Source of the DNA: an uncultured Eubacterium sp.
GTDB lineage: Bacteria > Bacillota > Clostridia > Oscillospirales > Acutalibacteraceae
Assembly (NCBI RefSeq): GCF_945980375.1
Contig: NZ_CAMFQO010000019.1
Coordinates: forward strand, 1 to 33,296
Reading direction: 5' to 3'
DNA: 33,296 nucleotides
The notes below the pieces were generated by a model. That model saw only the letters and a list, made by a program, of their open reading frames with translations. It had not been told where the DNA came from and did not search any database. Of the stretch, positions 829-21,314 are shown one piece after another; the first letter of the stretch is position 1; every line of letters begins with the position of its first letter. The position numbers and the translations under genes are program-made.

Positions 829-1713
829 TTATTTTTTTAGAATATTTATCAACTTATTTCTTAGCTGAATTCGCTTGATAAATAATTTCATCATGAATTT
901 TAAAAATATTTTTTGAATAGGATTAATGTTTTGATAATTCTCGTAGTAATATATTCTGGATTTATGTGTTAATTTCAATGTTTCGATTTTATTGTAAACT
1001 GTAGAAGTTGATGTTCCATGATTATGAACAAAAAACAAATCATTTACAAACGCAGCTTTATATCCCAAATTGAGTAGTTTTCGTCCCAAAATGCGTTCTT
1101 CACAATATAAAAATACGCCATCATCCAAAAAACCAATTTCTTTTAATACATCTGCACGAATTGCAAAAAAAGAGCCCGGAATAAATTCAGTTTCAATCAA
1201 TCTATTATAATTAGTATAAACCGGATCTTTAAAACATCTGCCTTTATTTAACTTAAATGTACATGCTAAAATATCGTCATAATAATTTGGTAATTTGATC
1301 GTCTTTTTTGAGAACGAGCCATCTTTTTCTTTCATAATGGGGGCTATCATCGCCAAATTATCATTAAGGCAAAAACAATCAATTAGCTTAGGAATAGTAT
1401 CATTTTCTAAAATGACATCCGGATTAGCAATAATAATGTATTCAGAATTATATTTATTTAATGCATATTTTGCACCGTAATTATTACCATAAGAATAGCC
1501 ACCGTTTATATCCGATACTATAAAATCTACTTTTGAGTTCTCATGATATTTATCGTTCAAAATAGACTCTGATTCATTTTTTGACCTATTATCTACAACA
1601 ATAATATGAAAATCATCATAATTAAAAGATAATAATAAGTCTGTTAAAAAAATTGTTGATTTATAATCGTTGTAATTAAGTATTACTATACTTGTATCCT
1701 TCAATTTGCTCAT
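829..1713 (-). CDS. Family 2 glycosyltransferase, rhamnosyltransferase-like
   Basis: A 294-aa GT2 protein. The chosen start is ATG 1711-1713 ([15 protein letters not shown]), which overlaps the TGA of the upstream gene as ATGA; an upstream in-frame ATG at 1726-1728 lies inside the previous gene and is less likely. Visible motifs are VVDNRS (nucleotide site), [13 protein letters not shown] and [10 protein letters not shown], the NPDV variant of the DxD motif typical of WbbL/RfbF-type rhamnosyltransferases. There is also a [15 protein letters not shown] stretch, resembling the catalytic acceptor-side ED region. Family knowledge suggests transfer of a deoxyhexose to the growing repeat unit; the specific sugar is inference. 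The basic C-terminus ([13 protein letters not shown]) may touch the membrane. Confidence 0.85.
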
Positions 1714-2315
1714 CCTACCTTTACCCATTTAGATTTTTCAAAATCCCAAGTTTTAACTACCTTGGCAGGTGAACCGACCGCAATAGAATACGGTGGAATA
1801 TTTTTTGTAACGACACTATTTGCACCTATTATTGAATGTTTTCCTATAGTGACACCGGGTAAAACACATACTCTCTGCCCAACCCAACATCCTTCTTCTA
1901 TTGTAACATCTTTTACTATAATATCTCGTGGACTATATCCTCCTTCTATAGTTGGATCCATTCCGTGATTATGATCAGTAACAAACACATCTGGTCCAAA
2001 AAGAACATCATTGCCGATAGTTATATTCCCCGCACAAGTAATTCTTGCACGACATTGAACTCTAACATTATCACCAAATGACAAGTTTGAATTTAATTTT
2101 TCTTCAAAATGCGAATCATAAACAAGTAACTCACTATTAGGTCCAATCCAAGTATTATGTCCAATAATAATATTGTGTTTCCCTACAATCTCACAAGTAT
2201 CACCAAAACCAATTTTTCCTATTGCACTTGATTTATCAAATGATTTAAAACCCTTAATAAAAATTTTCTTTTTTATTCTAATTGCAATTCTCTTAAATAA
2301 TCCAAATACATTCAT
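1710..2315 (-). CDS. Left-handed beta-helix acyltransferase (maltose O-acetyltransferase-like)
   Basis: A 201-aa protein with imperfect hexapeptide repeats across about residues 35-185 ([47 protein letters not shown]). Its closing loop, [15 protein letters not shown], is the acetyl-CoA binding signature of xenobiotic/maltose acetyltransferases. The TDHNHG segment near residue 114 carries the catalytic histidine typical of this family. It probably O-acetylates a sugar of the polysaccharide, as a trimer, using acetyl-CoA. It lies 3 bp after the glycerophosphotransferase gene and overlaps the following GT2 by 4 bp, so the three are translationally coupled. The acceptor sugar is unknown. Confidence 0.85.
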
Positions 2316-2318
2316 ATA

Positions 2319-3485
2319 CTAACCAATCTTTTTTATTTCTTCATACACTCTATCACAATTATGATTATCATATATTTGATAGAAGTCTCTCATCCGATTA
2401 TAATATTTTTCAGTCATAATAAAATCATTTTGATAGGCCTCTTCAAGATTGCTAATCAGTTCATCAATACAATAAGCAACCTTTCCAAATCCGTTTATCT
2501 CAGCATCAAATACACTTGACTGATACTGCTTAGTAAAAAATTCTGCTTTATCAAATTGAAAATATAAAACAGGCTTATTCATATAAGCAAAATCAAAATG
2601 AACACTTGAGTAGTCGGTTATCAATAATGCCGATTCCTTTAGAAGCTCTTGAATGTCATATTGATTGTCCTTATAAACAATTTCTATCTTTTCACAATCT
2701 GTTTTGAACGAATTTACATATTTTCGCATATTGTTATGTAGATAAAACACCAATGTCAAACCGTTTTTGATTAAAAAGTTTTGTAATTGATCATTGAAAA
2801 TAAAACTTGAATACGCCTTAAAATATTCAGTTTCTTCAAAAACCGTATCAGGATTTTGAGCAATGTACGCTCTCCATGTCGGCATAAGAACAATTTTTTT
2901 CTTATTAACATTAATATCATGCCAGCCATCTAAGCGAGGAAATCCTGTATATACAACTTCATTCTTGGTATAGCCATAATTGTTTAATACATTTTCATAC
3001 TCTGCTTTTCCGCTACAAATATACAAATTGATCTTTGCATATTTTTGAAGGCAGAATTCAGATATGCCATATGATACCCCATGTGGAAGAAAAACATCTT
3101 TGACCTTTATGTATTTTTTTATTCTCCTACAAAAAGAAACAGAATCAAACGGACAACACCCATTCACATGTGCACTAATATGTATTGGAGACATAACATA
3201 ATACACAAAATGCTTAAAACTATTAAACTTAATTATGTTACCATATTCTTTGATTTTTTTATAGTCATCACTGGATTTATCAATTATATAATATACTTTT
3301 TCGTTTGGATGTTGTTCTCGCAAATATTTATAAAAATAATAGCCATTATCTCTTGCTTGATCTGGTCTTTCTGTAATTATCCAAACATTTTTATTGAATT
3401 TTCTCGCAAGCAATCCAATTGGAATTGCAAATGCAAATTTAATGGTTGTTATTATATTTTTAAAATTTACACTGCTTAATTTCAA
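2319..3485 (-). CDS. CDP-glycerol glycerophosphotransferase (TagB/TagF-like)
   Basis: A 388-aa protein of the CDP-glycerol:poly(glycerophosphate) glycerophosphotransferase family. Recognisable blocks are ITERPDQARDNGYYFYKYLR near residue 37, LPHGVSYG (HG donor-phosphate site) near 135, TGFPRLDGW, LMPTWRAY and LLITDYSSVHFDFAY near 289, the last being the second nucleotide-binding block. The start codon is TTG (3483-3485) with AGGAG about 7 nt upstream; no ATG fits. By family it transfers glycerol phosphate from CDP-glycerol, here probably onto the polysaccharide repeat unit, giving phosphoglycerol decoration or a teichoic-like linkage. No tagD (CDP-glycerol synthase) is visible, so the donor must come from elsewhere in the genome. 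An N-terminal hydrophobic patch (about residues 12-24) could anchor it to the membrane. Confidence 0.9.
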   Translation of the reverse strand: MKLSSVNFKNIITTIKFAFAIPIGLLARKFNKNVWIITERPDQARDNGYYFYKYLREQHPNEKVYYIIDKSSDDYKKIKEYGNIIKFNSFKHFVYYVMSPIHISAHVNGCCPFDSVSFCRRIKKYIKVKDVFLPHGVSYGISEFCLQKYAKINLYICSGKAEYENVLNNYGYTKNEVVYTGFPRLDGWHDINVNKKKIVLMPTWRAYIAQNPDTVFEETEYFKAYSSFIFNDQLQNFLIKNGLTLVFYLHNNMRKYVNSFKTDCEKIEIVYKDNQYDIQELLKESALLITDYSSVHFDFAYMNKPVLYFQFDKAEFFTKQYQSSVFDAEINGFGKVAYCIDELISNLEEAYQNDFIMTEKYYNRMRDFYQIYDNHNCDRVYEEIKKIG

Positions 3486-3494
3486 AATAATCTC

Positions 3495-4484
3495 CTAAAC
3501 TGAATACTTTTGGTCTATCTTTGTTATTTTTTCATATATTCTTCTAATCAATAAATAGAGGTGTGGAAGACATACTGTTAAAATAGACATCATTTTTACT
3601 TTATTATTTAAAAGTTTTAAAATTAGTTTCATATTTGATTTAATAGTTTTTTTTGCTTCGTTCTTATACTCAGTTGGAATTTTTGCGGTTGATTTTCCTA
3701 TCAAAAATCCAATATATCTTGAAAAAGCAATTTGATATAACTCATCATTATTACAATCAGCCATAATCGTTTCAAAAACCAACTTTGGACCATTAAATTT
3801 GTTAGGATTAAACGAGGATGTTGCCGCCGAATTATTACGCACCATATAATGATATTTGCATACATCTTCAAACACAGACTTTTTGCTCTCTTTGAATAAA
3901 TAATAGTTCATTAGTAAATCTTCATAATTTTTGATTTCTGTATTCATAACTCCGGTATGCAACAAATTTTGGAACAGAGTGTGGTGAAATAATTTATTAC
4001 AAAGTCCCGGTTCAACCATTGTGCCTTCTAAAAGATCACAAAGGCCTTTTAGATTGTCTTGTTCCACAAGACACCCTGTATTGTGATAATAATCAACACG
4101 CTTTGCACCTAAAACCATTTTGTATCCACAATGAGAAATGTCAGCATTATATTTAACAGCATTATTAATCAAAAATTCATACATATCCTCATCAATCAAA
4201 TCGTCACCATCAACAAAGCCTATCCATTCGCCGGTTGCGTGTTTAATTCCGTTAATGCGAGCAGAGGTCACTCCTCCGTTTTCTTGATGAATTGGAATAA
4301 TTCTTGAATCTATTTTTGCATAATTACAAATTATATCAAACGATTTGTCATTTGAACCATCATCAACAACAATAATTTCAATATTAGAATGTGTTTGAGC
4401 GCAAACTGAATCTAATGTTCTTTTGATATAATTTTGCAGATTATAAACAGGAATAATTACTGATATTTTGTCGTTAATCGACAT
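3495..4484 (-). CDS. Family 2 glycosyltransferase
   Basis: A 329-aa GT2 enzyme. ATG 4482-4484 is preferred because GGAGG sits 7 nt upstream; a TTG two codons earlier is in frame but badly spaced. Motifs are ISVIIPVYNLQNYI, VVDDGSNDKS, GGVTSARINGI and FVDGDDLID (DxD site). The C-terminal 80 residues are basic and hydrophobic (LLNNKVKMMSILTV, LPHLYLLIRRIYEK), suggesting membrane association. The gene overlaps the end of the upstream acyltransferase by 11 nt, so its ribosome binding site lies inside that gene. It probably adds one residue of the repeat unit; donor and linkage are unknown. Confidence 0.9.
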   Translation of the reverse strand: MSINDKISVIIPVYNLQNYIKRTLDSVCAQTHSNIEIIVVDDGSNDKSFDIICNYAKIDSRIIPIHQENGGVTSARINGIKHATGEWIGFVDGDDLIDEDMYEFLINNAVKYNADISHCGYKMVLGAKRVDYYHNTGCLVEQDNLKGLCDLLEGTMVEPGLCNKLFHHTLFQNLLHTGVMNTEIKNYEDLLMNYYLFKESKKSVFEDVCKYHYMVRNNSAATSSFNPNKFNGPKLVFETIMADCNNDELYQIAFSRYIGFLIGKSTAKIPTEYKNEAKKTIKSNMKLILKLLNNKVKMMSILTVCLPHLYLLIRRIYEKITKIDQKYSV

Positions 4485-5025
4485 ATCCAATTCCTCCGTT
4501 GTTTTTTAGTTCATCAATCATTTGCTGTTTTTTCTCTGTGGTTAGTTGCGCACTTCTCATTGTATAGCTTTCGTCATACGAAGGACAAACTTCAATTTCT
4601 TGTTTTTTTCGTTCTATATATTCATCATATGAACATATTACCTTTGCAGGATTGCCAAGAGCTAAAGAATTCGACGGAATATCCTTACTTACAACACTTC
4701 CTGCACCAATAACAACATTATCACCGATAGTAACACCGGGTAAAACAATAGATCCTGCACCTATAAATACATTACTACCTATATTAACAATACCTATTCT
4801 TGTTTTATTTAGTGCTGTTTTTGTACTGGCATCGTGAGCGAGTATATGCACCCTTGGCGCTAATGTAACATCATCGCCGATAGAAATTAACCAAGAATGT
4901 GAATCATCAATGATTACTCCATTAAGACGCTTAAAGTTTTTTCCTACTTTAAGTCCTCTGTTGATCAACTCTTCAGTTGATATCTCGCCCCTCAATCTAT
5001 AAATCAGTTTTCTTAATTTGAACAT
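4474..5025 (-). CDS. Left-handed beta-helix acyltransferase (hexapeptide repeat)
   Basis: A 183-aa protein with hexapeptide repeats at about residues 45-130 (ISIGDDVTLAPRV, IGIVNIGSNVFIGAGSIV, VTIGDNVVIGAGSVV). It closes with the NSLALGNPAKVIC acetyl-CoA loop. HILAHDAST near residue 60 supplies the likely catalytic His. The tail (about 140-183) is charged and Lys/Glu-rich, which is longer than in minimal members. It is the second putative O-acetyltransferase in the operon and is clearly a different subfamily from the one at 1710-2315, so at least two acylation sites on the glycan are plausible (inference). It overlaps both neighbours: 13 nt with the upstream GT4 gene and 11 nt with the downstream GT2. 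Confidence 0.85.
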   Translation of the reverse strand: MFKLRKLIYRLRGEISTEELINRGLKVGKNFKRLNGVIIDDSHSWLISIGDDVTLAPRVHILAHDASTKTALNKTRIGIVNIGSNVFIGAGSIVLPGVTIGDNVVIGAGSVVSKDIPSNSLALGNPAKVICSYDEYIERKKQEIEVCPSYDESYTMRSAQLTTEKKQQMIDELKNNGGIGYVD

Positions 5026-6134
5026 AAAATTAAATCCTCTAACAGTTTTTCAACATTTTCAACTGTTTCATTTGTACTGAATTTTTTGCCTCTTATTTTT
5101 GCCTGCTTTTTATATTTATCTAACAAACCCTCTTCTGTAAGTATTGTATAAATGCCATCATACAATGCGTTTTCATTATTTTCTGTTACAATACCATATT
5201 CGTTATTACAGCCAAGCAATTCATTCGCACCACTCACCTTTGTGCTAATGACAGGAGTGCCTATAACAAGTGACTCTGTAACTGCCGTACTAAAACCTTC
5301 GTGAAGCGAAGAACAAACAAATAAATCAGCAGCAGCTACGTATTTATAGGGATTTTCGTCAAATCCAAGCAAAAGGCATGAATCGCAAATGTTTAAATCC
5401 TTAATCATCAATTCTAACTTATTTCTGTCTCCGCCTTCACCAAGAATATACAGTTTGCTATTTATTCCGTTATCTAATAGCCTCTTGTGAATTCTGACGA
5501 GTCTATCATATCCCTTATGTTCAAAACTAAGCCTACCAACAGAAACTATATTAAAGCAGCCATCGCAATGACTTATAATATCCTGACTTTCCTTGGATTT
5601 TTCAATTATTTGGTTTGTTTCATTAACATTATATAAAACTTTACAGTCTGCTTTGACATCAAACAATGAACAAAAGTTTTCTTTTACCGTGTCTGCAACA
5701 CAAATAATTTTATCAAAAGAATTATAGCATTTTGTCATTTCTTCTTGACTTCTAAATGATGCTGAAAGCTCCTCAACAGTCTTATGTTCAATATGAATCC
5801 ACGCTATTTTTTTGCCATTATATGCAGATGCAATTCTACAGCAAGGACCTTCTAAAAACGAAACAACTACATCATAATTTTTTCTAATTACCAACTTACA
5901 TAATATATTCGGAGAAAACAACTTCATCAATTTAGTATTACCGGGGAACATTTTCTTAAATCCGCCAATGTAATGAACATCGTTAGATAAGAATTTTTTG
6001 TTTACTCCGACATCAAAAAGTGTTTGAATAGTTACATCGTATTTAGTTTTGTCTAAATTATTTGCTAGGTTTACAAGAACTTTTTCTGCACCACCATAGC
6101 TTAAATCGTGTATAAGAAATAGTATTTTTTTCAT
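5013..6134 (-). CDS. Family 4 glycosyltransferase
   Basis: A 373-aa GT-B enzyme. The N-terminal domain begins MKKILFLIHDLSYGGAEKVL, the glycine-rich acceptor loop with GGAE typical of GT4. The C-terminal domain shows NIVSVGRLSFEHKGYDRLV and LYILGEGGDRNKLE. The EX7E donor-binding block is seen as SLHEGFSTAVTESLVIGTPVI, with the two glutamates near residues 280 and 288. It is a retaining transferase by family, probably extending the polysaccharide repeat unit from a nucleotide-sugar donor. It starts 3 bp after the stop of the EpsG-like polymerase gene and overlaps the acyltransferase that follows. Confidence 0.9.
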   Translation of the reverse strand: MKKILFLIHDLSYGGAEKVLVNLANNLDKTKYDVTIQTLFDVGVNKKFLSNDVHYIGGFKKMFPGNTKLMKLFSPNILCKLVIRKNYDVVVSFLEGPCCRIASAYNGKKIAWIHIEHKTVEELSASFRSQEEMTKCYNSFDKIICVADTVKENFCSLFDVKADCKVLYNVNETNQIIEKSKESQDIISHCDGCFNIVSVGRLSFEHKGYDRLVRIHKRLLDNGINSKLYILGEGGDRNKLELMIKDLNICDSCLLLGFDENPYKYVAAADLFVCSSLHEGFSTAVTESLVIGTPVISTKVSGANELLGCNNEYGIVTENNENALYDGIYTILTEEGLLDKYKKQAKIRGKKFSTNETVENVEKLLEDLILCSN

Positions 6135-6137
6135 AGA

Positions 6138-7307
6138 TTAATAATAAAATAAATTCAGTTTTTCACTACCGTAAAAACCAGCTCCTTGCATTGCGAAGGA
6201 ATAGTAAAAATATGCAAAATAAAGCACATAGCATGCAATTTTTATAAACGTTCTGGTTTTTCCCTCAAATGTTTTATTCAGCAACCATGGTAGTAAGATA
6301 TAGTCGGGTAACATAAAGTAAATTGGCATTCTTCCAACTAAAATACCGCTGGTAACTGTACCGACTAAATATACGCCTGTTGCAACAACAGACATATTAA
6401 TGCATATGTCAATAACATAATCGTGTTGTTCATCGACTGCTTTCTTTCTTACAAATGCTATTATTGGTGGTACTGCAGATATTAGAACACGAATAAAGTT
6501 AACTCCATCATCAATAGCACCATCTTCCATTCCATAATTCAGAAGAGCTGAACCAACACCTTCATTTTCGGTTCCTTCAAAGGATGCATCAAGAAAATCT
6601 GTAAATTGATCTATTCCAAAAATGATCAACAAGGTAGCGATAATACAAAACCAAATCCCCTTGCTCCAAGGTTTCAACCTTACAATAAAATATAACGGTA
6701 TCCAAAATAAAGCTGTTTGATGAATTGTTGCAGCCAAGAGTACCAAGAGTAAAAACCTAATCGTTTTTCTCTTTAATACATAGTTAAACCCATACATTAT
6801 CAAGCATACCGCCAAAAATTGGCGAACACCATTCATCATCCACGTAAATGATCCACTTGCCACAAACAAAAATGCACTCATGGCGAAATTAATTGAATGT
6901 TGATAATACAATTTTATAATTGCACCGGTTGAAATTATTGCCAAAAATGTAAACCAAATGGTATAATCCTTTGAAATAAAATGTTTAAAAATTATTTGAA
7001 GTATATCAAACCCTTTTGATTTACTGTCACTATCAATAATTGGCTTAATGTCTGATAAATCACTTGAGGCCTTTTGAAACTCAAGAACATATAGCCAAGT
7101 ATCGCCATAATTACTTCTATATGAAATAAAAAACACCATAACTGCAAATGATAATAATGCAAAAAATAATGGTATTGATTTTTGATACTTTTGATGTTCA
7201 ATATCATTTGGACCAAATGGCACTACTCTTGAGCTATTAATTCTCAAATAATATCCAAAGGCAGAAATCACTGTTGTTGAAATTAAAATTATATAAAATA
7301 CAAACAT
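6138..7307 (-). CDS. EpsG-family polysaccharide polymerase (Wzy-like)
   Basis: A 389-aa polytopic membrane protein with about ten hydrophobic segments. It begins with a membrane helix at residues 1-20 and contains the family hallmarks FFISYRSNYGDTWLYVLEF (the YR..GxDTxxY motif of EpsG-like proteins, here with GDTW) near residue 60. Further on are ASGSFTWMMNGVRQFLAVCLIMYG (NGxRQ) near 152 and AATIHQTALFWIPLYF (the HxTA motif) near 192. By family it polymerises undecaprenyl-linked repeat units or synthesises the chain on the outer face of the membrane. It is the only polymerase candidate in the cluster. No Wzx-type flippase gene is visible, so that function must lie beyond the contig end or elsewhere. 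Confidence 0.85.
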   Translation of the reverse strand: MFVFYIILISTTVISAFGYYLRINSSRVVPFGPNDIEHQKYQKSIPLFFALLSFAVMVFFISYRSNYGDTWLYVLEFQKASSDLSDIKPIIDSDSKSKGFDILQIIFKHFISKDYTIWFTFLAIISTGAIIKLYYQHSINFAMSAFLFVASGSFTWMMNGVRQFLAVCLIMYGFNYVLKRKTIRFLLLVLLAATIHQTALFWIPLYFIVRLKPWSKGIWFCIIATLLIIFGIDQFTDFLDASFEGTENEGVGSALLNYGMEDGAIDDGVNFIRVLISAVPPIIAFVRKKAVDEQHDYVIDICINMSVVATGVYLVGTVTSGILVGRMPIYFMLPDYILLPWLLNKTFEGKTRTFIKIACYVLYFAYFYYSFAMQGAGFYGSEKLNLFYY

Positions 7308-7315
7308 ACTAAACT

Positions 7316-8206
7316 CTACTTTGCTTTGTGTTTAACATAAAATGAAAATAATACACCCGGAACAATTAATAAAATACATAATAACTTACTTGGGCAATCT
7401 CTAATTATGTGTTTTTTCTTGGCGTGTATGGAACTCGAAATATAATGAATTACATTTTTCACCTTAAACTTCCAACTGGAATTTGGTAAAGATAAGTAAT
7501 ATTTTCTAATAGCTAAGAAGCTATTTGGACTATTCAAATATTGTTTGAAAATTGAATCCGTCATACCGTTTTGTTGATATTCAACAAATTTTAGATTTTC
7601 ATTCATTACTAAAAAATCATAGTTTTCAGATATTTTGAGATGCATAATGTGCGGATTATAGTTTTTCTCTCCGTTTATACTTTCTTGCGGAGCAACAGAT
7701 TTATATAAATCTGTCCTTACTACATTTGCCCTATCACCATTGACAATATGATACTTTCCCAAAAGTAAATCTATCAGATTTATTGATTTTTGATTTGGTA
7801 ATTTATCACCTATAATACTACCATCACAATAACAATCTAAACCAACTATTCCTGCATATTCATTTGAGCCATATTTTCTCCAAAATCCAATAACCTTTTC
7901 AACTAAATCATCGGGAGCATAGTCGTCTGAATCAATACACATCATTAACTCTGTATTACAATACTCAATAGCACAATTATAACCTGTATGCAATCCGCCA
8001 TTATCTTTCTTAATATAAATAATATTAAATACATTATCTTGATTTTTCCAATCACTAACAATCTGCTCTGTGTTATCTGTTGAACCATCATCAATAATCA
8101 TCCAACAAAAATCCATAGAGGACTGTCTTCTTAACGATTCATATAGTCTTGGCAATGTGTCTGCACGATTATATGTAGGGCTAAATATTGTTAAAGTAAC
8201 ACTCAT
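7316..8206 (-). CDS. Family 2 glycosyltransferase
   Basis: A 296-aa GT2 enzyme: LTIFSPTYNRADTLPRLYESL, MIIDDGSTDNTEQIV, NGGLHTGYNCAI and MCIDSDDYAPDD carry the GT-A fold motifs including the DSDD metal site. The C-terminus has a hydrophobic stretch (LLCILLIVPGVLFSFYV, about residues 272-288), a likely membrane anchor. Its ATG (8204-8206) shares one base with the TAA of the upstream gene (TAATG), so translation is coupled. It belongs to a subgroup often found in capsule clusters with a PTYNRA start. The donor sugar is not predictable. Confidence 0.9.
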   Translation of the reverse strand: MSVTLTIFSPTYNRADTLPRLYESLRRQSSMDFCWMIIDDGSTDNTEQIVSDWKNQDNVFNIIYIKKDNGGLHTGYNCAIEYCNTELMMCIDSDDYAPDDLVEKVIGFWRKYGSNEYAGIVGLDCYCDGSIIGDKLPNQKSINLIDLLLGKYHIVNGDRANVVRTDLYKSVAPQESINGEKNYNPHIMHLKISENYDFLVMNENLKFVEYQQNGMTDSIFKQYLNSPNSFLAIRKYYLSLPNSSWKFKVKNVIHYISSSIHAKKKHIIRDCPSKLLCILLIVPGVLFSFYVKHKAK

Positions 8207-9186
8207 TATCTGTTGCTCTTCCTAACTTTTAAAAAAATTCTCAATATGAATAGCATAATTTTAAAACCAAATAATTTATTGAATAATGCTACTAACTTAA
8301 CTTTATCATTAGTGCCATTATTTAGTAAATAACTCATCGATTTTACTTTAACCAATAATTCTTTATCTCCATAGAAAAATACTACATAAAGATTTAGTAA
8401 AGTAATGTATTGATAAGCCAAATAATCAAATACATCTTGTGTATTTTCTGTTTTTAGTTTGTTCAAATAATCAAGAGAGTTTTCAATATTATTATACAAA
8501 TCAACTATTGACTGTTTATTTATGTTATGAGTAATAGAGGTCTCCTGCTGTCTATATACATACACATTATTCGGATAAACAGTATAATTCTTACATACTG
8601 TTAATAACTTTGCTGTCCATTCAACATCTTCCGAAGTAACACCGAATCTAAAATCAAATATATTTTGCTTAACAACATCTAATCTAACAAATTTCGTGCA
8701 AGCAGAACTGATTATCCAATTATTAGTTATTAATTCGTTTAATGAATAATCATATTGATCCCTATATGCATCAAAGTTCATTATTGGCTTGAAATAACCA
8801 TCTTTCCATTCTCCATATCCAAACACAATAACATCATATTGTTTCGTGCAAATAATATCGTTTATTTCTTTCAGAAAACACATATCATTCCAATAATCAT
8901 CACTATCAAGAAACCCAATATATTGTCCATTTGCTTTTTCTATTCCATAATTTCTTGCAGAAGATAAGCCACCATTTTCTTTATGATACACTTTTATAAA
9001 ATCATATTGTTCAGCATAATTATCGCATATTTTTCCACTGCTATCAGTTGAACCATCGTCAACTAAAATCACCTCAAAATTTTTGAAAGTTTGATGTGTT
9101 AGACTTTGTAAACATTTATCTAAATATTGCTCAACATTGTAAACCGGAACAACAATACTAAATAACAATTTCGTTTCCAAATTCAT
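8206..9186 (-). CDS. Family 2 glycosyltransferase
   Basis: A 326-aa GT2 enzyme with FSIVVPVYNVEQYLDKCL, ILVDDGSTDSSGKIC, GGLSSARNYGIEKA and IGFLDSDDYW. This is the most canonical GT2 domain of the cluster. The RFGVTSEDVEWTAKLL block near residue 181 corresponds to the acceptor/catalytic base region. The annotated ATG (9184-9186) has AGGGAG only 1-2 nt upstream, tighter than usual, so a slightly later TTG is possible. It lies 13 bp after the GT4 gene and ends overlapping the next GT2 by 1 nt. Confidence 0.9.
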   Translation of the reverse strand: MNLETKLLFSIVVPVYNVEQYLDKCLQSLTHQTFKNFEVILVDDGSTDSSGKICDNYAEQYDFIKVYHKENGGLSSARNYGIEKANGQYIGFLDSDDYWNDMCFLKEINDIICTKQYDVIVFGYGEWKDGYFKPIMNFDAYRDQYDYSLNELITNNWIISSACTKFVRLDVVKQNIFDFRFGVTSEDVEWTAKLLTVCKNYTVYPNNVYVYRQQETSITHNINKQSIVDLYNNIENSLDYLNKLKTENTQDVFDYLAYQYITLLNLYVVFFYGDKELLVKVKSMSYLLNNGTNDKVKLVALFNKLFGFKIMLFILRIFLKVRKSNR

Positions 9187-9199
9187 TCTCCCTAACTAA

Positions 9200-10315
9200 T
9201 CAGCCAAAATAGATATTTCCTAATTCTTTGTATACATTCTTATCGGTAAACAGCTGAGCTTTTTCAAGTGCTGATTTTGCATAAATTGTCGGATTATCAA
9301 GCACTTTTATAATCCTATCAGCAAATGCATCAACATCTGTTGCACCTACAATAAATCCTGTTACACCGTCTTTAACAAGTTCTCTGTGCCCTCTGTTATT
9401 TGACGCTACTACAGCATTTTCACAAAGCATTGCCTCCATAACATTAAGAGGTAATCCTTCTCTAAAACTGCAAGCCACAGAACATTCGGCGATGTTGTTA
9501 TACTTATTGAGTTCAAGAGTATATCCCAAGAACTCAACACTATTTCCCAATCCGTTTTCCTTAACAAGATTTGTAAGATTATCAAGTTCAGGACCATTCC
9601 CGGCAATAAACAGTTTTGCAGTCGGATACTTTTCAACAACCTTTTTCATTGCGAGAATAGCTGTTCTTTGATTTTTGTTTGGAAGAAGCTCACCGACATT
9701 AACAATAACTTTTGTGTCTTCAGGAATACAAAGTTCTTCTCTAATAGTTTTCTTTTCTTCTTCGCATAAAGCATAAAACTTACTGCTATTAGCACCGACA
9801 CCGTGAATATGGTAGACATTTGTTTTGAAATTTTCAGATGCAAGAGCATAATCCTCTTCTGTAATCGTGATTAACTTATCAGTAAGTCTTGCACAAAACT
9901 TTTCGATAGGATAATAAATCATCCAATTTTTCTTGGGTGCCCCGTCGTAAAAATGAAAACCATGGGCGGTATAGATTACGCATGTACCTTTTTTTCTTGC
10001 TTTTTGTGCAGCAAGACGAGTAAATACTCCTGCTGCCGGAGTATTAGTATGAACAAAATCGTAATCACCGTTATCAATAATTTTTTTAACTTCTTTGTAT
10101 GCTTTTAGATTTTTTGGACTAAGCGGTGATCTTTCAAACGGCACATCAAATACTTTGTCGGCAAAATCAATTTTCAGGCCATTCTTTTCTGCCAAATTAT
10201 TTCTTGCTGCAACATGAACCTCATATCCGTTTTCTTGAAGCAATTTCATTAGTGGCTTGTGAAATTGACAAATATGACTTTGTACTGTTGCAGTTAATAA
10301 TACTTTTTTACTCAT
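9200..10315 (-). CDS. Family 4 glycosyltransferase (EpsD/CapM-like)
   Basis: A 371-aa GT-B enzyme. The N-terminal domain contains LLTATVQSHICQFHKPLMKLLQENG and THGFHF, typical of the subgroup that often catalyses an early extension step after the initiating transferase. The C-terminal domain contains VNVGELLPNKNQ, LFIAGNGPELDNL and the EX7E block SFREGLPLNVMEAMLCENAVVASN (glutamates near 285 and 293), then RGHRELV. Given its position just after the first four genes of the operon, it is a good candidate for adding the second sugar; this is inference from order and subgroup. AAGGAATAAGAG precedes the ATG. Confidence 0.9.
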   Translation of the reverse strand: MSKKVLLTATVQSHICQFHKPLMKLLQENGYEVHVAARNNLAEKNGLKIDFADKVFDVPFERSPLSPKNLKAYKEVKKIIDNGDYDFVHTNTPAAGVFTRLAAQKARKKGTCVIYTAHGFHFYDGAPKKNWMIYYPIEKFCARLTDKLITITEEDYALASENFKTNVYHIHGVGANSSKFYALCEEEKKTIREELCIPEDTKVIVNVGELLPNKNQRTAILAMKKVVEKYPTAKLFIAGNGPELDNLTNLVKENGLGNSVEFLGYTLELNKYNNIAECSVACSFREGLPLNVMEAMLCENAVVASNNRGHRELVKDGVTGFIVGATDVDAFADRIIKVLDNPTIYAKSALEKAQLFTDKNVYKELGNIYFG

Positions 10316-10328
10316 CTCTTATTCCTTA

Positions 10329-11909
10329 CTAGAAAGGTAAAATGGAATTTATTGTGAAAATAATATTCAGCATATTTGCTCTAAAATCAGTTTCCTTCAT
10401 ATTTACAACGCGGATGTTCATATCATATAATTCCTTGTTAAGATATTTTTTCATGTCAAGATGATGTTGGTCACTAATTCTCTTATCAAGCGGAACTTTA
10501 AACAAAACATCAAGAAACTTCCTATTATTATAAATAAAAGTAATGTCTGAATAGATTTTCATCTCTGAAATATTCAATCCGCCCCAGCTACCCCAAGTAA
10601 CTTCGTTATAATGCATATCTGCTGGTGGATACTGTGCTGGGATCTTTGAGTATTCAAATTTTTCAATATATTCTTCAAACACCTTATCAATCTTATGTGC
10701 AAGAGAACGATTGAAGATAAAGATTTTATATAAATTTCTAAAAAGTTTTGGTGAAAGCTTTGGCATACTGCTTCTACCATAATGTTTATACCAATATGCT
10801 CTAATTGTTTCTGATACCCAAGATTTAACCTCAACATCACAATCAAGATTTTCCATTAGGTATACTCTTTTTCTATACTCATTATCATTACCACGAGCAA
10901 TGTATCCATTATTGTGATCAATGATAGCTTTTATCTCTTCGTAATTTTTTAAGCCATCTGCCGTATCTGGAATATTGAAAAGAATTCTTTCAACATTAAA
11001 TCTATCCGAAATAGTTTTTGCTGCATCAGCATCAATAGTTTCTTTTTCAGCAGATACATAACTAAATGTCTTAAACTTATCGTATATTCCATTTGCTGCT
11101 GCAAAAGTTGTATTACTATCAATTCCACCGGTTAATGAAATATACGGTTTTTTCCATTTTTGTGCAACAAGTTGCATGCCGTTTTTAAGGATATCAGCCG
11201 CGTACTCAATTACTTCATTATACTCTTTATCGTCATTTACCTCTGATAAGTCTCTAAGAGGATAAAACCTTCTATGAGTGACACAATTCGAACAATACTC
11301 ATATTCAATGTTTGGAACTATACGCTTTACATTGTCAAATTGTGTCATATCACCAGGAAGATATGGACCCATAACACGATAATACCATCTATATTCAATA
11401 AGTTCTTTTGCAAGTTCGCACATTGATAAATTGCAAATATCACCAATTAATTGTGAATGTGATGAAATATAGAAATAACCATCAATATTTGCATAACAAG
11501 CAGATTGCATTCCAGATGGATCTACTTCATATGTAATCCTCCCGTCAACAATAGAACCAATAACAAACACACCCGTAATTTCATCTATTCTATCTTGATA
11601 ATCATCAGTTCCATATGCTTCGCCAATTCGTTGAAGAATTTTATTTTCATCAATTTCCATAGTAAACGGATTGTACGCATGGCCAAAAATAAAGAAAACA
11701 TTACCATTTAACTCTACGCTATGTACCGATTGAAGCATATGAGTATACGCATAGAAACCATTACTTAAATCATTCTTGTTCCATTTGCCCCAAAAAGGAA
11801 ATTTTTGAAGATCCAAATCATTTCTATTGGTAAGGATAAAACCCCTAACAAAAAGATACTGTTGTAATTCTTCATGTTTCTCAATCATTGTTACAAAGTC
11901 ATTGTTCAT
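10329..11909 (-). CDS. Asparagine-synthase-like ATP-dependent amide ligase lacking the glutaminase cysteine
   Basis: A 526-aa protein with the two-domain layout of asparagine synthetase B. Residues about 1-200 resemble the Ntn glutaminase fold (GVFVIGSIVDG, YFYISSHSQLIGD, then the linker LPGDMTQFDNVKRIVPN), but there is no N-terminal catalytic Cys2: the protein starts MNNDF. The synthetase domain has an intact PP-loop, SLTGGIDSN (258-266), for ATP pyrophosphate binding. Family knowledge: members without Cys2, such as beta-lactam and carbapenam synthetases, adenylate a carboxylate and use an amine other than glutamine ammonia, while intact homologues amidate uronic acids in O-antigen clusters. 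Here it overlaps the dehydrogenase gene by 11 nt and follows the aldolase. That suggests it condenses their hydroxyacid product with an amine, perhaps an amino sugar (inference). Confidence 0.8.
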   Translation of the reverse strand: MNNDFVTMIEKHEELQQYLFVRGFILTNRNDLDLQKFPFWGKWNKNDLSNGFYAYTHMLQSVHSVELNGNVFFIFGHAYNPFTMEIDENKILQRIGEAYGTDDYQDRIDEITGVFVIGSIVDGRITYEVDPSGMQSACYANIDGYFYISSHSQLIGDICNLSMCELAKELIEYRWYYRVMGPYLPGDMTQFDNVKRIVPNIEYEYCSNCVTHRRFYPLRDLSEVNDDKEYNEVIEYAADILKNGMQLVAQKWKKPYISLTGGIDSNTTFAAANGIYDKFKTFSYVSAEKETIDADAAKTISDRFNVERILFNIPDTADGLKNYEEIKAIIDHNNGYIARGNDNEYRKRVYLMENLDCDVEVKSWVSETIRAYWYKHYGRSSMPKLSPKLFRNLYKIFIFNRSLAHKIDKVFEEYIEKFEYSKIPAQYPPADMHYNEVTWGSWGGLNISEMKIYSDITFIYNNRKFLDVLFKVPLDKRISDQHHLDMKKYLNKELYDMNIRVVNMKETDFRANMLNIIFTINSILPF

Positions 11910-12813
11910 TTTTCACATGCTCCTCTAAATTAAATAAGATAGTGTCAAACATTCTTTTGTTATTACTGTCTCCAACAAAGCTATTGTGTGGGGTGATAAT
12001 TACATTGTCAAAATCCCATAACTTACTGTTTTGTTCAAGTGGTTCTTCTTCAAAAACGTCAAGTACGGCACCTGCAATTTTGCATTGTTCTAATGCAGAA
12101 ATCAAATCGTTTTGATTTACAAGTTTTCCTCTTGCAATGTTAACAAATACTGCACTATCTTTCATAAGGCAAAACTTTTCATTATTGAAAAAGCCTTCAT
12201 TATCACTTGTTAACGGTAATGTCAATACCACAACATCGGCTGTTTTCAACAGATTATCTAACTCATCAATAGGATAGATTTCATTAAAATTAGGATTATC
12301 GCTTGGGAACAAATCTACGCCGATAACATTTGCGTCAAACGCTCTAAAACGCTTTGCAACCTCTGATCCGATATTTCCTGCACCGACAATGAGTACATTT
12401 TTATCAATTAATTCTAATAAACCTCTATGCTTTTCCCATTTATGCTGCTTTTGATTTTCATAAAAAAATCTCGATTGCTTATATAATTGAAGGACTCCGC
12501 ATAAAGCAAACTCAGCCATTGGAGCAGAATAAACACCTCTTGCATTTGCAATCTTGATATTATGTTCTTTGGCATAATCAAGTGGAACTCTATCAAGACC
12601 TGCTGACGTTAACTGAATAAATTTCAAACTCTTGAACTTTTCAATTGGTGTGTATAGGAATAATCCATTACAAACCACAGCTTCGATATCACTAACATCA
12701 AATTCAATTGGTATTCTTTCATCTTGGACAAAAACAACATCATGACCAAGAGATTTAATATATTCAATTTGCTCTTGCGTATACTTAAACGCACCTGTCA
12801 AAAGTAATTTCAT
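11899..12813 (-). CDS. D-isomer-specific 2-hydroxyacid dehydrogenase
   Basis: A 304-aa NAD-dependent oxidoreductase. The Rossmann motif GAGNIGSEVAKRF lies at 144-156, and VIGVDLF about 20 residues later ends the second strand with Asp, favouring NAD over NADP. The catalytic trio is visible: Arg228 in NIARGKLV, a Glu in DVFEEEPL near 257, and His276 in ITPHNSF. It reduces a 2-keto acid to a D-2-hydroxyacid or runs the reverse. Its ATG overlaps the aldolase stop by 4 bp (ATGA), and its own end overlaps the ligase start. Such tight coupling suggests it acts on the aldolase's 2-keto acid product. No house-keeping role (serine or lactate synthesis) is indicated by the context. Confidence 0.9.
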   Translation of the reverse strand: MKLLLTGAFKYTQEQIEYIKSLGHDVVFVQDERIPIEFDVSDIEAVVCNGLFLYTPIEKFKSLKFIQLTSAGLDRVPLDYAKEHNIKIANARGVYSAPMAEFALCGVLQLYKQSRFFYENQKQHKWEKHRGLLELIDKNVLIVGAGNIGSEVAKRFRAFDANVIGVDLFPSDNPNFNEIYPIDELDNLLKTADVVVLTLPLTSDNEGFFNNEKFCLMKDSAVFVNIARGKLVNQNDLISALEQCKIAGAVLDVFEEEPLEQNSKLWDFDNVIITPHNSFVGDSNNKRMFDTILFNLEEHVKNEQ

Positions 12814-13628
12814 CTGTTAGCCTTTATTGCTTCAATTATCTTCTCTGTTTGTTTATGTATTTCATCAAAATAATCAATCGGTTGATTTTCTAAGCTCTTT
12901 TCAAACTCTCTGTTTTCGGCTATGCCGTTCGTCATTATCTGCTCAAACTCTACAACATCATACTTAGTCCAATCACAAAAAGCTCTTGCCAAAATCGACA
13001 TTGAAGAACCTAATCTGTAATGCTCGCAAAGAATATTTTCCGCAGGAAGAAGGTTATCACAATTAACCTTGCCTACACCGCCTATACCAAACTTTATGTT
13101 TGCTTTCTTCAATTTGGAAACAATTTCATCAACTGTTCCGTCAACATACAATTCAAACATAAATTTCTTGTGCTGGCTCAAATGCAAATCATTCAGTCCA
13201 ATATAGATTTCGTCCACATCATCAAGCACAACAACATCATCAAGGCATTTCCTTGCTTCTTCCGTTTCGAGCAAAAGTATCGTTTTTACTCTTCTTTTTA
13301 CTATGCTGTAGAACGCTTTAACATCATCAACAGATTTCCACATCGGAAGCATTATAAAATCTGCTCCTGCATTGATAACGGCATTAATCTCATCCTCTGA
13401 GCCATCGTGTATTGGATTAACTCTTACAAGAAGCTTTGGCTTGCTGATAGCAGTTCTAACATTTTTTACATCTTCAACCGTATGGTGATTTTTAACTGTA
13501 TCAAGTCCACCCTGTCGCTTATCTTTACCGATATACTCCATATCAATAAAGATTCTATCAACGCCTGCTCTTTCGCAAGCAGAAGCCACATCGGGATTAT
13601 TTGTTATGTAAAAATACTCTAACGCCAT
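12810..13628 (-). CDS. HpcH/HpaI-family aldolase (pyruvate-type class II)
   Basis: A 272-aa TIM-barrel protein of the HpcH/HpaI aldolase/citrate lyase family. FIDMEYIGKD (Asp29, Glu31) opens the barrel. LLVRVNP gives the carboxylate-binding Arg69, LLLETEEA the metal-binding Glu121 and IYIGLNDLHLS the metal-binding Asp147. Members split or form 4-hydroxy-2-keto acids from pyruvate (or oxaloacetate) and an aldehyde using a divalent metal. It sits 2 bp after the initiating sugar transferase and overlaps the dehydrogenase by 4 bp, an unusual place for a catabolic aldolase, which suggests a biosynthetic role in making a glycan substituent (inference). The family call is strong; the substrate is unknown. 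Confidence 0.85.
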   Translation of the reverse strand: MALEYFYITNNPDVASACERAGVDRIFIDMEYIGKDKRQGGLDTVKNHHTVEDVKNVRTAISKPKLLVRVNPIHDGSEDEINAVINAGADFIMLPMWKSVDDVKAFYSIVKRRVKTILLLETEEARKCLDDVVVLDDVDEIYIGLNDLHLSQHKKFMFELYVDGTVDEIVSKLKKANIKFGIGGVGKVNCDNLLPAENILCEHYRLGSSMSILARAFCDWTKYDVVEFEQIMTNGIAENREFEKSLENQPIDYFDEIHKQTEKIIEAIKANR

Positions 13629-13630
13629 AA

Positions 13631-14266
13631 TTATACTGTTTCGGTTTCTTTCTCTTCTACTTCATCAGTAACAAGTGTTGCTCCAACATTTACATTATCT
13701 TCATTTTTCAACACCTTGACTACTGTTGTAAACAAAATCTTCAAATCAAGCCATAATGACACATGGTCAACATACCAACAATTGAGTTCAATTCTCTTAT
13801 GCCATTCAACATCTTTTCTTCCGTGAACCTGTGCCCAACCCGTTATACCCGGACGAACATCAAACATATGCAATTGTTCTTCTGTATACTCACTAATGTC
13901 CCACGGATGATATGTAAGAGGAGGACGAGGTCCGACAAAACTCATATCACCTTTCAATATGTTCACAAGCTGTGGTAACTCATCAATGCTCGTTGCTCGA
14001 ATGATTTTGCCGACTTTTGTAACCCTCATATCATCTGCACCGCTATAAACACCGGTACCTGTATGTTCTGCACCTTGACACATAGACCGAAACTTGTAGA
14101 TTTTGAAGACTTTACCACCAAGGCCAATTCTGTCTTGCTTAAATAAAGCAGGACCTTCAGATTCAAGCCTAACAGCAACTACTGTCAAAAGCATTATCGG
14201 CGAAAGAAGAATCACAGCAACCACCGCAAAAATAATATCAAATAACCTTTTTATGTATTTATACAT
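13631..14266 (-). CDS. Initiating undecaprenyl-phosphate sugar-phosphate transferase
   Basis: A 211-aa short-form (PglC-like) monotopic phosphoglycosyl transferase. A reentrant membrane helix lies at residues 8-28 ([19 protein letters not shown], with the helix-breaking SP). It is followed by [25 protein letters not shown], where the usual catalytic DE-type acid pair corresponds to DELPQLVN near 118. Then come [12 protein letters not shown] and [12 protein letters not shown]. It moves a sugar-1-phosphate from a UDP-sugar to undecaprenyl phosphate, the first committed step of polysaccharide assembly, on the inner face of the membrane. It is the first gene of the operon, with AAGGAG 7 nt before ATG and a promoter about 75 bp upstream. 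The C-terminal tail is acidic (EVEEKETET). Confidence 0.93.
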
Positions 14267-14337: not shown

Positions 14338-14367
14338 ATTATACAACATTTATTAACAATTCGTCAA
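14338..14367 (-). promoter_or_regulatory. Sigma-A-like promoter of the polysaccharide operon
   Basis: On the minus strand TTGACG (14362-14367), an 18-bp spacer and a perfect TATAAT (14338-14343) point at the sugar transferase gene. The leader would be about 65 nt. The stretch around it is very AT-rich. No repressor palindrome or attenuator was recognised. Confidence 0.75.
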
Positions 14368-18524: not shown

Positions 18525-19424
18525 TTAAAGTCCTGTGTTTTCTGCGATGTATTTGCGAGCCTTAACTGCGTATTCAAACGGGTTTGCCTTGGCAGGATCC
18601 TGCTCTGCTTCAACAACAACCCAACCCTCGTAATCGTTTTCGGCAAGGATGTCGAATATCGGCTTGAAATCAACATCGCCGTCACCGGGGACGGTGAACA
18701 CACCTGCTCTTACGGCATCAAGGAATGACATATGATTTGGCACAACCTGATTATTGTAAACATCAAGCCTTACATCCTTGAGGTGAACGTGCTTAATGCG
18801 GTTTATGTACTTTTTGAGCACGGGAACGGGGTCAATACCGGCAAAGGTAAGGTGTCCGCTGTCAAACAAAAGGTAAACAAGCTCGGGATCGGTAAGCTCC
18901 ATAAGCTTATCAATTTCCTCTACGGTCTGCACGCCGGTGCCCATATGATGATGAACGGTAAAGTACATACCCTTGCTCTTGGCATATGCACCCATTTCAT
19001 TAAAGCCCTTGGCAACAACTGCCCACTCTTCATCGGTATAATACGGCTTTTCGTCAAGAATTGATTTGGTTAAATCACCCTGGATAGAATTGCCTTGCTC
19101 CGATGCGCCGATAACCCTTGCACCGAGCTTATAAAGCTTATCGCAATGTGCCTTAAAAGCCTCAATGGTTTCCTCATAAGGCTTTGAGGTGAGATAGGAG
19201 CTGAACCAAGCGTTGCAAATTTGCAAGCCTCTGATGTCAAGATAAGGCTTAAGAACATCAGGATCGGCAGGATACTTATTGCCGATTTCGCTACCCTTAA
19301 AGCCTGCAAGTGCCATCTCGCTTATGCACTGCTCAAATGTATTTTCCGCACCCAAATCAGGCATATCGTCATTTGTCCAGCCGATAGGTGCAATAGCTAA
19401 TTTTACTTTGTTTGGATTAAGCAT
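18525..19424 (-). CDS. iolE: Inosose dehydratase (myo-inosose-2 dehydratase)
   Basis: A 299-aa xylose-isomerase-like TIM barrel. [17 protein letters not shown] at the N-terminus is the characteristic IolE start, followed by [17 protein letters not shown]-like [27 protein letters not shown] and VHLKDVR, with the metal ligands Glu, Asp and His in these blocks, then [10 protein letters not shown]. It dehydrates 2-keto-myo-inositol to 3D-trihydroxycyclohexane-1,2-dione, step two of inositol breakdown, using Mn2+ or Co2+. It is third in the iolG-iolD-iolE operon, 18 bp after iolD. Confidence 0.95.
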
Positions 19425-19442
19425 TTGTTTTCTCCTTATGTA

Positions 19443-21296
19443 TTAATAGTCAAAGGTCTTTGCAATGTTTTCCTGCATATCCTTGTATGCCTTTGCAACT
19501 GTTTCGCTTGTTGAAACCTCGGCAACACCGACTCTCCACCAAGACTCAAAGCCCGGTGTCATTGTTTTCGGCAGCACCTTGATGTCGAACAGAACAGTTC
19601 TGTCCTGTCCCTTTGCATCTGCAAGAGCCTTGCGAAGCTCATCCGATGTGCGAATTGTATATGCCTTTGCTCCGTAACCCTCGGCGATTTTTGCAAAATC
19701 GACGGTCATATCCGCGCCGTCAAGCATACCTGTTTTTGGATTTCTTGCCTTAAACACGGTGCCGAAGGTATCTGTTCCTTGATTGTTTTGAAGGTTTTCT
19801 ATACAGCCCCAGCCGAGATTGTCGAAAAGACAAACGTTAATCTTTAAGCCCTCCTGCAACGCAGTGTAAAGCTCGCTGTGTCCCATAAGGAAGGAGCCGT
19901 CGCCGCAGAAGGCGTATACCTCTGCCTCAGGCTTTGCAAGCTTTGCGCCGAGTGCTCCGTTAACCTCATATGCCATATTGGAATAGCCGTATTCCATATG
20001 GTAATTTCGACAACCCTTTGGTCTGAACAGGCGTTGCATATCGCCCGGAAGTGAGCCTGCTGAGCCGAGAGCAATGTCCTCATCATCCATAAACTCGTTG
20101 ATTATGCCAAGAGCAAGTGTTTGATTAAGTCCTCCCTCAAGCTCCTTGCTGTAATAATCGTCAACAATGGCATCCCATTCTGCCTTTGCGTCTGCAAGCT
20201 CTGTTGTGTAGGTTGTTTTGTAGCCGTCAAGTGCCCCGACAATAGCAGACAACGCCTCCCTTGCATCTGCAACGATAGCCTCTGCATCCATCTTGTAGGC
20301 ATCAAACGGACAAATGTTGATGCCGAGCACCCTTCTGTTTTCATTAAACAGCCACTTTGAAGAGGTTGTGAAATCGGTAAATCTTGTGCCTACACCGATA
20401 ACAAGGTCGGCATCCCTTGCAACAACATTGGCAGCCTTGCCGCCTGTTACACCGATACCACCGAGATTAAGCGGATGATTCCACGCAATAAGTCCCTTGC
20501 CTGCCTGTGTTTCGGTTACAGGGATATTACATTTTTCGGCAAGAGCCAAAAGCTCCTTTTCCGCACCTGAATATCTAACACCGCCGCCGCAAACGATAAT
20601 AGGCTTTTTGGCGGATTTAATAAGCTTTACTGCACGCTCAAGCTGTGAAGCTCCGATAGGGCGTCTGTCAATATGCCAAACTCTTTTTGCAAGGAAATGC
20701 TCGGGATAATCGTAAGCCTCGCCCTCTACATCCTGTGGCATTGCAAGACATACCGCACCTGTGTCGGCAGGGTCGGTAAGAACACGCATTGCGTTGATGC
20801 AGGCTGTCATCAGCTGCTCGGGGCGAACAATTCTGTCAAAGTAATGGCACACACCCTTAAATGCATCGGTAACAGTTCTACCATAGCCGTCAAAAAACTC
20901 TGCCTGCTGCAACACAGGGTCAGGCTGACGGCATGCAAAGGTGTCACCGGGGAGCACCAAAAGAGGTATTCTGTTTGCCGTTGCACAGCCACAGGCTGTT
21001 ACCATATTTGTTGCACCGGGGCCGATAGATGACACGCAAGGGATAATTGCCTTTCTGTCCATCTGCTTTGCATATGCTACTGCGGCAAGAGCCATATTTT
21101 GCTCGTTTTTGCCCTGATAAAATTTTAGATTATGACCGCCTTGTTCAAGCGCCTGACCGACACCGACTACACAGCCGTGACCGAATATGCCGAAAATTCC
21201 GCTGACAAATTTCGACTCTACTCCGTCAACCTCTATGTACTGATTGTCAAGGAACTTAACAAGAGCCTGCGCCATTGTAAGTCTTTCTCGTTTCAT
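19443..21296 (-). CDS. iolD: 3D-(3,5/4)-trihydroxycyclohexane-1,2-dione hydrolase
   Basis: A 617-aa thiamine-diphosphate enzyme with the normal three-domain layout. The N-terminal Pyr domain has GIFGIFGHGCVVGVGQAL and the glutamine-rich YQGKNEQNMA. The middle domain has KKPIIVCGGGVRYSGA. The C-terminal PP domain has the ThDP motif EVYAFCGDGSFLMGHSELYTAL followed by NVCLFDNLGWG. It opens the cyclic dione to 5-deoxy-glucuronate, step three of myo-inositol catabolism. It sits 18 bp after iolG with GAGGT before its ATG. Only iolG, D and E are here; iolB, iolC, iolJ and a transporter are not in the window. Confidence 0.96.
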   Translation of the reverse strand: MKRERLTMAQALVKFLDNQYIEVDGVESKFVSGIFGIFGHGCVVGVGQALEQGGHNLKFYQGKNEQNMALAAVAYAKQMDRKAIIPCVSSIGPGATNMVTACGCATANRIPLLVLPGDTFACRQPDPVLQQAEFFDGYGRTVTDAFKGVCHYFDRIVRPEQLMTACINAMRVLTDPADTGAVCLAMPQDVEGEAYDYPEHFLAKRVWHIDRRPIGASQLERAVKLIKSAKKPIIVCGGGVRYSGAEKELLALAEKCNIPVTETQAGKGLIAWNHPLNLGGIGVTGGKAANVVARDADLVIGVGTRFTDFTTSSKWLFNENRRVLGINICPFDAYKMDAEAIVADAREALSAIVGALDGYKTTYTTELADAKAEWDAIVDDYYSKELEGGLNQTLALGIINEFMDDEDIALGSAGSLPGDMQRLFRPKGCRNYHMEYGYSNMAYEVNGALGAKLAKPEAEVYAFCGDGSFLMGHSELYTALQEGLKINVCLFDNLGWGCIENLQNNQGTDTFGTVFKARNPKTGMLDGADMTVDFAKIAEGYGAKAYTIRTSDELRKALADAKGQDRTVLFDIKVLPKTMTPGFESWWRVGVAEVSTSETVAKAYKDMQENIAKTFDY

Positions 21297-21314
21297 ACTG
21301 GACCTCGCACAATG

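Follow-up and report, generated by a model that had tools for sequence, protein, structure and literature searches.

A conserved gene module of sugar transferase, aldolase and dehydrogenase, its putative amide ligase, and a possible role in glycan decoration

What would an aldolase, a hydroxyacid dehydrogenase, and a relative of asparagine synthetase be doing at the head of a polysaccharide gene cluster? The question is raised by a 33,296-nt stretch of DNA from an uncultured Eubacterium sp. (contig NZ_CAMFQO010000019.1; hereafter, the window). A sequence-only reading of it had noticed three genes with 4-nt and 11-nt overlaps directly behind the gene for an initiating sugar transferase, and both the coordinates and the Bac_transf match of the transferase agree with that description. 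We call the small initiating sugar transferase PGT, the HpcH/HpaI-type aldolase ALD, the D-2-hydroxyacid dehydrogenase DH, and the asparagine-synthetase-like protein without an N-terminal Cys LIG; L and G numbers denote loci and genomes, respectively. Along the minus strand, the order is PGT, a 2-nt gap, ALD, the 4-nt overlap, DH, the 11-nt overlap, LIG, a 13-nt gap, and a GT4 glycosyltransferase gene.

We are close to certain that PGT-ALD-DH-LIG is a genuine conserved module. As to its function, the best explanation, to which we give about an even chance on the evidence of sequence comparisons, is that it would decorate a glycan by aldol addition, reduction, and adenosine monophosphate (AMP)-activated amide coupling to a glycan precursor.

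Co-occurrence of the module genes

A scan of a genome collection for LIG yielded 21 loci at 45 to 73% identity, mostly from gut and rumen Clostridia by their record titles. ALD and DH adjoin LIG in 11 of these, 8 of them in the order PGT-ALD-DH-LIG. Six others (L003, L004, L006, L008, L012, and L019) carry LIG without the other module genes, some of them among genes that by eye have a housekeeping look; the remaining four are L011, with the genes PGT-DH-GT4-LIG, L014 and L015, in which GT4 adjoins LIG, and L018, a fragment. Tandem LIG copies occur in L003, L005, L006, L008, L009, and L022. Three of these pairs are solitary (L003, 6140-9581; L006, 1360-4742; L008, 1321-4757), with ALD-DH elsewhere in the same genomes, and a gene that by eye resembles a GNAT acetyltransferase lies near LIG in L003, L004, L006, and L008.

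Linkage alone could mislead, and we therefore checked whole LIG-bearing genomes for the remaining genes. ALD was present in 19 of the 20 searched. LIG and ALD are unlinked in nine genomes, eight of which still have ALD; the exception is L014, where the locus ends 112 nt before LIG. Seven of those eight have DH beside ALD (two of them, L052 and L054, read via genomes equated through identical coordinates); in the remaining one, L011, DH adjoins LIG.

Across 150 genomes of the family, the window's included, ALD was found in 16, a close PGT (at least 55% identity) in 12, DH (E of at most 1e-45) in 11, and LIG (E of at most 1e-20) in 6. These sets are strictly nested, LIG within DH within close PGT within ALD. 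The close PGT subfamily is confined to ALD-bearing genomes in this sample, and all other PGT matches there were at most 51% identical. With the window genome left out and relatedness ignored, hypergeometric p values were 5e-6 for LIG in ALD, 4e-7 for LIG in DH, 3e-12 for DH in ALD, and 1e-13 for close PGT in ALD. A class-wide sample (n = 391) gave ALD in 20 genomes and LIG in 7, with 6 common to both; the one LIG match outside the overlap, in G331, is weak and partial (E = 6e-39). In a phylum-wide sample (n = 398), ALD occurred in four genomes, counting the window's. The strongest unit is PGT, ALD, and DH, and LIG is an add-on to it.

LIG had no match in phages and four distant ones in plasmids (22 to 24% identity), of which those from E. 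coli and Natrinema lie in glycan clusters and that from Microvirga lies in a stretch without annotation. The E. coli relative, in the capsule locus of plasmid pCE1537-B (L151, 5900-8245), is a 781-aa protein with an AsnB-like C-terminal part and an N-terminal half without a Pfam match. ALD had two plasmid matches, at 43% identity, both in Rhodobacterales. On these marine plasmids (L153, 4678-9899; L154, 4678-9899), the ALD relative is flanked by a Cys-bearing AsnB of the glutamine type and a NeuB-like synthase, with a DegT aminotransferase ahead of them; this is an independent pairing of the ALD family with an AsnB-type enzyme.

Partner exchange and the predicted product of ALD

The main evidence on what ALD makes comes from its neighbors. 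We assembled 55 distinct ALD loci from 62 stretches, having removed 4 without ALD and 3 duplicates; 24 of the 62, those 4 among them, had been reached via LIG, so that LIG is over-represented. A neighbor was a gene on the same strand and no more than 6 kb away, matched by BLAST with one or few references, the family of the references and several partners being taken from Pfam. PGT lies near ALD in 42 of the 55 loci. A partner suited to a 2-oxo acid or to the derived amino acid lies near ALD in 44: DH in 34, a transaminase IV and/or pyridoxal phosphate (PLP) decarboxylase in 6, and an Ldh_2 protein (malate/L-lactate type) in 4. No locus holds two partner kinds together. Two of the partner transaminases pass the curated branched-chain transaminase cut-off, and two of the Ldh_2 proteins score best, under the cut-off, against L-sulfolactate dehydrogenase.

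Because unrelated enzyme types that share 2-oxo-acid substrates replace one another beside ALD, we consider it very probable that ALD makes a 2-oxo acid. That a D-2-hydroxy acid is an intermediate is probable. The earlier suggestion of a hydroxy-acid-making set is supported at its first step by three interchanging partner kinds. LIG was found in 15 of the 55 loci, always with DH. The claim that the trio is conserved beside sugar transferases is supported, with the qualification that LIG is missing from most ALD loci and lies far off in several genomes.

In an ALD tree (56 rows, quick method), the partner labels are scattered and 26 of 53 inner branches are poorly supported. Five partner labels require 27 changes, compared to 30 in shuffles, and a value as low arose in 18 of 200 shuffles. 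Well-supported branches force at least three origins of the transaminase/decarboxylase arrangement and at least two of the Ldh_2 arrangement; the ALD of L002 (DH and LIG) forms a sister pair with that of L047 (transaminase) at 96% support.

The predicted ALD model, a confident one (predicted local distance difference test [pLDDT], 93), had HpcH/HpaI aldolases on top in Foldseek (E of about 2e-10, TIM barrel). A fold ranking by Z put pyruvate kinases first (20.5), with SbnG and HpaI at 19.2; HpcH/HpaI ranks first both by sequence profile and by Foldseek. SbnG, a citrate synthase, has the same fold, and so it is possible that the condensation carried out by ALD is not a pyruvate aldol. In a profile alignment, E121 and D147 of ALD align with the ESK and GPADLS metal-ligand sites of YfaU; these residues and R69 (RVNP) are invariant in 12 sequences, and we take their roles to be metal binding and pyruvate binding, respectively. 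ALD thus has the Pfam family, TIM barrel, metal Glu/Asp, and conserved Arg of the class II aldolases (HpaI, HpcH, and YfaU). It differs from them in its low identity (about 15%), in its place in glycan operons, and in an additional basic loop in which K35, R38, and Q39 are invariant (n = 12) and which also holds H49. That this loop binds a phosphate or a nucleotide is speculation. The HpcH-type catalytic His is presumably to be expected after a DxEH motif, where ALD has EY: Y32 follows E31 at that position, and H49 is in a lower-confidence loop, the motif having been placed without superposition. In DH, R228, E257, and H276 are invariant (n = 13), which we take to be the Arg/Glu/His catalytic triad of D-2-hydroxyacid dehydrogenases.

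We imagine that ALD, with a divalent metal in its HpcH/HpaI fold, would add a pyruvate-type enolate to an aldehyde, giving a 4-hydroxy-2-oxo acid, and that DH would reduce this to the (2R)-2-hydroxy acid; both steps are well supported by the comparisons above. Formaldehyde as the acceptor would lead to 2,4-dihydroxybutyrate, and larger aldehydes would lead to larger hydroxy acids.

Other possible ligases appear at a few ALD and LIG loci. L122 (7143-8069) and L129 (6730-7662), two of the loci in which ALD has no recognized partner, have ALD-PGT without DH, and in both PGT is followed immediately by a short ATP-grasp protein, possibly an alternative ligase. In L011 (4043-9554), an ATP-grasp protein of the D-alanine--D-alanine ligase type, above the NCBIfam subfamily cut-off, lies between DH and GT4.

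The ligase-like protein and its possible acceptor

LIG begins MNNDF and retains the PP-loop SLTGGIDS. Its start is fixed on the 5' side by an in-frame TGA, the second codon ahead of the ATG, which rules out an earlier start, and Cys appears first at residue 138; the absence of a glutaminase Cys beside an intact PP-loop, reported in the sequence-only reading, is borne out. It is also borne out for close homologs. An alignment of 28 LIG sequences combined that of the window with 27 from related loci, an N-terminally truncated fragment among them, the relatives' start codons not being fixed individually. An N-terminal catalytic Cys occurs in 0 of 28, and within the aligned stretch no sequence shows a Cys before residue 14. 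The position needs correction: the equivalent of AsnB Cys1 is not residue 2 but about residue 22, after an extra N-terminal helical stretch, and that column holds Arg in 23 sequences, Lys in 2, Trp in 1, a gap in 1, and Cys in 1 (L012, internal rather than N-terminal). Judged by these residues, the glutaminase of LIG is dead.

The best fold match of the predicted LIG structure is carbapenam synthetase (11 to 14% identity). The AsnB two-domain fold, the lack of an N-terminal Cys, and the PP-loop are common to LIG and the carbapenam and beta-lactam synthetases; LIG differs from them in its N-terminal extension and its low identity. The synthetases known so far close a ring inside one molecule and use a Tyr-Glu catalytic dyad. 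In LIG, the loop expected to hold the dyad Tyr is shortened, in a distant alignment without residue superposition. The GEGSD loop of AsnB is absent as well, leaving a five-residue gap against E. coli AsnB in a distant and weak MAFFT alignment, and because of this, LIG is not simply AsnB or a beta-lactam synthetase. A profile comparison with E. coli AsnB spanned the N-domain and PP-loop region, and MAFFT was used for the remainder, with the E. coli plasmid protein included from residue 331 on. The LIG profile matched only generic PP-loop proteins among PDB sequences (QueC and NH3-dependent NAD synthetase), and LIG matched no NCBIfam model at E 0.001, TIGR03108 included. In all 28 sequences, both tandem copies included, S258, G261, G262, D264, and S265 of the PP-loop and many C-domain residues are invariant.

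It is plausible that the PP-loop of LIG would form an acyl-adenylate and hand it to an amine other than the ammonia of glutamine, giving an amide. That LIG is an amide ligase acting on the acid from ALD and DH is in our judgment evenly balanced. The pantothenate pathway (PanB, PanE, and PanC) likewise makes a C-C bond to a 2-oxo acid, reduces the product to a 2-hydroxy acid, and forms an amide with release of AMP; the order of chemistry is that proposed for the module, the enzyme families differ, and the module sits in a glycan context. The kind of product has a parallel in the 2,4-dihydroxybutyryl amide on the sugar amine of cholerae O1, where the acid is the L-form, as opposed to the D-type acid proposed here (PMC6272311).

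Where the acid would go is suggested by gene fusions. GT4 is fused to LIG in L013 (904 aa) and to ALD in L082 (686 aa). A third fusion, in L002/L086 (612 aa), joins ALD to a CoA_binding_3 domain, a domain that we associate with the N terminus of WbaP-type transferases. These fusions and the dedicated PGT subfamily suggest that the acid is used early, when assembly of the lipid-linked glycan begins. Its acceptor would then be on what PGT and GT4 build on the lipid, the first sugar or the first disaccharide, and the EpsG-type protein would polymerize the decorated product.

Other roles for the module have to be weighed. The acid might instead enter the glycan by way of a hydroxyl, which GT4 would glycosylate or which would be bound in an ester or ether, with LIG capping the free carboxyl with a small amine or amino acid. 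That route fits the GT4 relative found no more than 6 kb from ALD in 11 of the 15 LIG loci, the GT4 fusions with LIG and ALD, the Acyl_transf_3 gene of L118 and L133, both of which have ALD and DH but lack LIG, and the GT4 of the window, which scores best against BshA, an enzyme that glycosylates the hydroxyl of malate. The BshA match, however, is generic and far under the cut-off, and the GT4s beside LIG are of at least two types (22 to 24% versus 42 to 58% identity to the window's), so that no one acceptor is conserved; by eye, the locus listings showed no conserved single acceptor gene beside LIG. We regard this route as unlikely, though the most serious of the alternatives. There is a smaller chance that LIG, though a PP-loop protein, is dead or has been repurposed, serving as a scaffold or carrier or in other AMP-forming chemistry, and that only ALD and DH are catalytic. 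Its lost GEGSD loop, its generic PDB matches, and its tandem copies could be so explained; the invariance of the PP-loop residues and of many C-domain residues argues against it.

Uronamide formation is less probable still. LIG would then amidate a sugar carboxylate, its linkage to ALD and DH being incidental, much as AsnB-like enzymes of surface-glycan loci, among them WbpS/WbqG (eps_aminotran_1, TIGR03108), make uronamides (PMC7468200). UDP-sugar 6-dehydrogenases do occur in some LIG loci (L021 and L121 by BLAST, L005 by eye), and the distant relative in the E. coli capsule locus lies with wecB/wecC. Unlike WbpS/WbqG, however, LIG has no TIGR03108 match and no glutaminase Cys, and its occurrence is nested within those of ALD and DH. 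No match to the uronic-acid dehydrogenase family PF00984 was found in the window genome (98% complete), against matches in 13 of 14 control genomes, and uronamide formation there is unlikely. As for a catabolic aldolase/reductase set present in the operon by chance, HpcH/HpaI aldolases are best known from catabolism; with PGT near ALD in most loci, glycosyltransferase fusions, and strict nesting with a PGT subfamily, such an accident is very improbable.

Several observations weigh against the amide-forming decoration module that we prefer. Eleven of the 55 ALD loci have no recognized partner nearby (three such genomes, G120, G037, and that of L082 and L011, have DH elsewhere), and 3 of the 34 DH matches (L057, L058, and L132) are only 33 to 37% identical. 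ALD-DH loci without LIG, among them L041, L118, and L133, imply that the acid is usable without it. The nearest module relative, G018 (L041), has ALD at 76%, DH at 69%, and GT4 at 86% identity, as well as PGT, and no LIG at E 1e-20; within the window's genus, G021 has ALD and PGT and neither DH nor LIG, and G149 has no ALD. The amine is a further difficulty. No full-length DegT aminotransferase was matched in the window genome, where three partial matches (34 to 41 bits, 113 to 121 of 360 positions, all above the cut-off of 19.8) are assumed to be other PLP enzymes; a DegT-made amino sugar as the acceptor there is unlikely, and the amine would come from elsewhere, such as deacetylated N-acetylglucosamine or an amino acid. 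Elsewhere, DegT-like genes lie near ALD in 7 of the 55 loci. The loss of the GEGSD loop counts here too, as does the Rubrobacter plasmid relative of LIG, which lies outside any glycan locus. Many loci derive from metagenome bins, and since relatedness was ignored, the true significance of the co-occurrence is below the computed p values.

Already known are hydroxyacyl amides on sugars (PMC6272311) and uronamide-making AsnB-like enzymes in glycan loci (PMC7468200). What appears to be new is the gene set, the modular exchange of partners, and the LIG branch. The earlier remark that no described pathway with this exact set was known agrees with our literature search, which returned none, most subscription journals lying outside its scope. 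One can tentatively envision a modular route to glycan substituents: one ALD family with its own PGT, its 4-hydroxy-2-oxo acid converted by lineage to a D-2-hydroxy, L-type hydroxy, or amino acid, and a new glutaminase-dead AsnB-like branch attaching the D-hydroxy acid, through an amide like that of pantothenate, to a lipid-linked sugar. How hosts, phages, and other microbes recognize bacterial surface sugars depends on the acyl groups that these carry, and to our knowledge, few biosynthetic routes to such acids have been described. If true, the proposal would predict how gut and rumen Clostridia make hydroxyacyl and aminoacyl substituents, make ALD beside its own PGT a sequence marker for such glycans, and add a new group of glutamine-independent, AMP-forming amide ligases.

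Features of the window

PGT is the first gene of the polysaccharide gene string, the rest of which, beyond the module, is ordinary polysaccharide synthesis (Table 1). The promoter- and terminator-like sites before PGT are consensus matches, hardly commoner than in shuffled sequence.

Table 1. The module and its surroundings in the window
Feature	Coordinates	Strand	Evidence
PGT, small initiating sugar-phosphate transferase (Bac_transf)	13631..14266	-	PF02397, 230.8 bits
ALD, class II pyruvate aldolase of the HpcH/HpaI type, predicted to form a C-C bond	12810..13628	-	PF03328 HpcH_HpaI, 41.6 bits (cut-off 25)
DH, putative 2-oxo acid reducer	11899..12813	-	PF02826 2-Hacid_dh_C, 187 bits
LIG, putative AMP-forming amide ligase	10329..11909	-	Asn_synthase, 20.9 bits, just under cut-off 21
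GT4 glycosyltransferase, usually after the module	9200..10315	-	Best NCBIfam BshA, 104 bits versus cut-off 274
Promoter-like site 5' of PGT, TTGACG N18 TATAAT	14338..14367	-	Consensus match only
Terminator-like site between the upstream SpoVAD gene and PGT	14447-14421	-	Consensus match only
Remaining polysaccharide genes: four GT2, one GT4, EpsG-type polymerase, two hexapeptide acyltransferase-like, one CDP-glycerol-type glycerophosphotransferase	829..9186	-	

Outside this string, positions 18525-22328 hold a row of TIM-barrel, thiamine pyrophosphate-enzyme, and GFO/IDH/MocA genes that to our eyes resembles inositol catabolism. A 642-aa open frame without a Pfam match (23136-25064) lies between a signal peptidase gene and a small TSCPD-domain gene, and positions 25779-27317 encode a zinc carboxypeptidase (M14) with Ig-like Big_2 domains.

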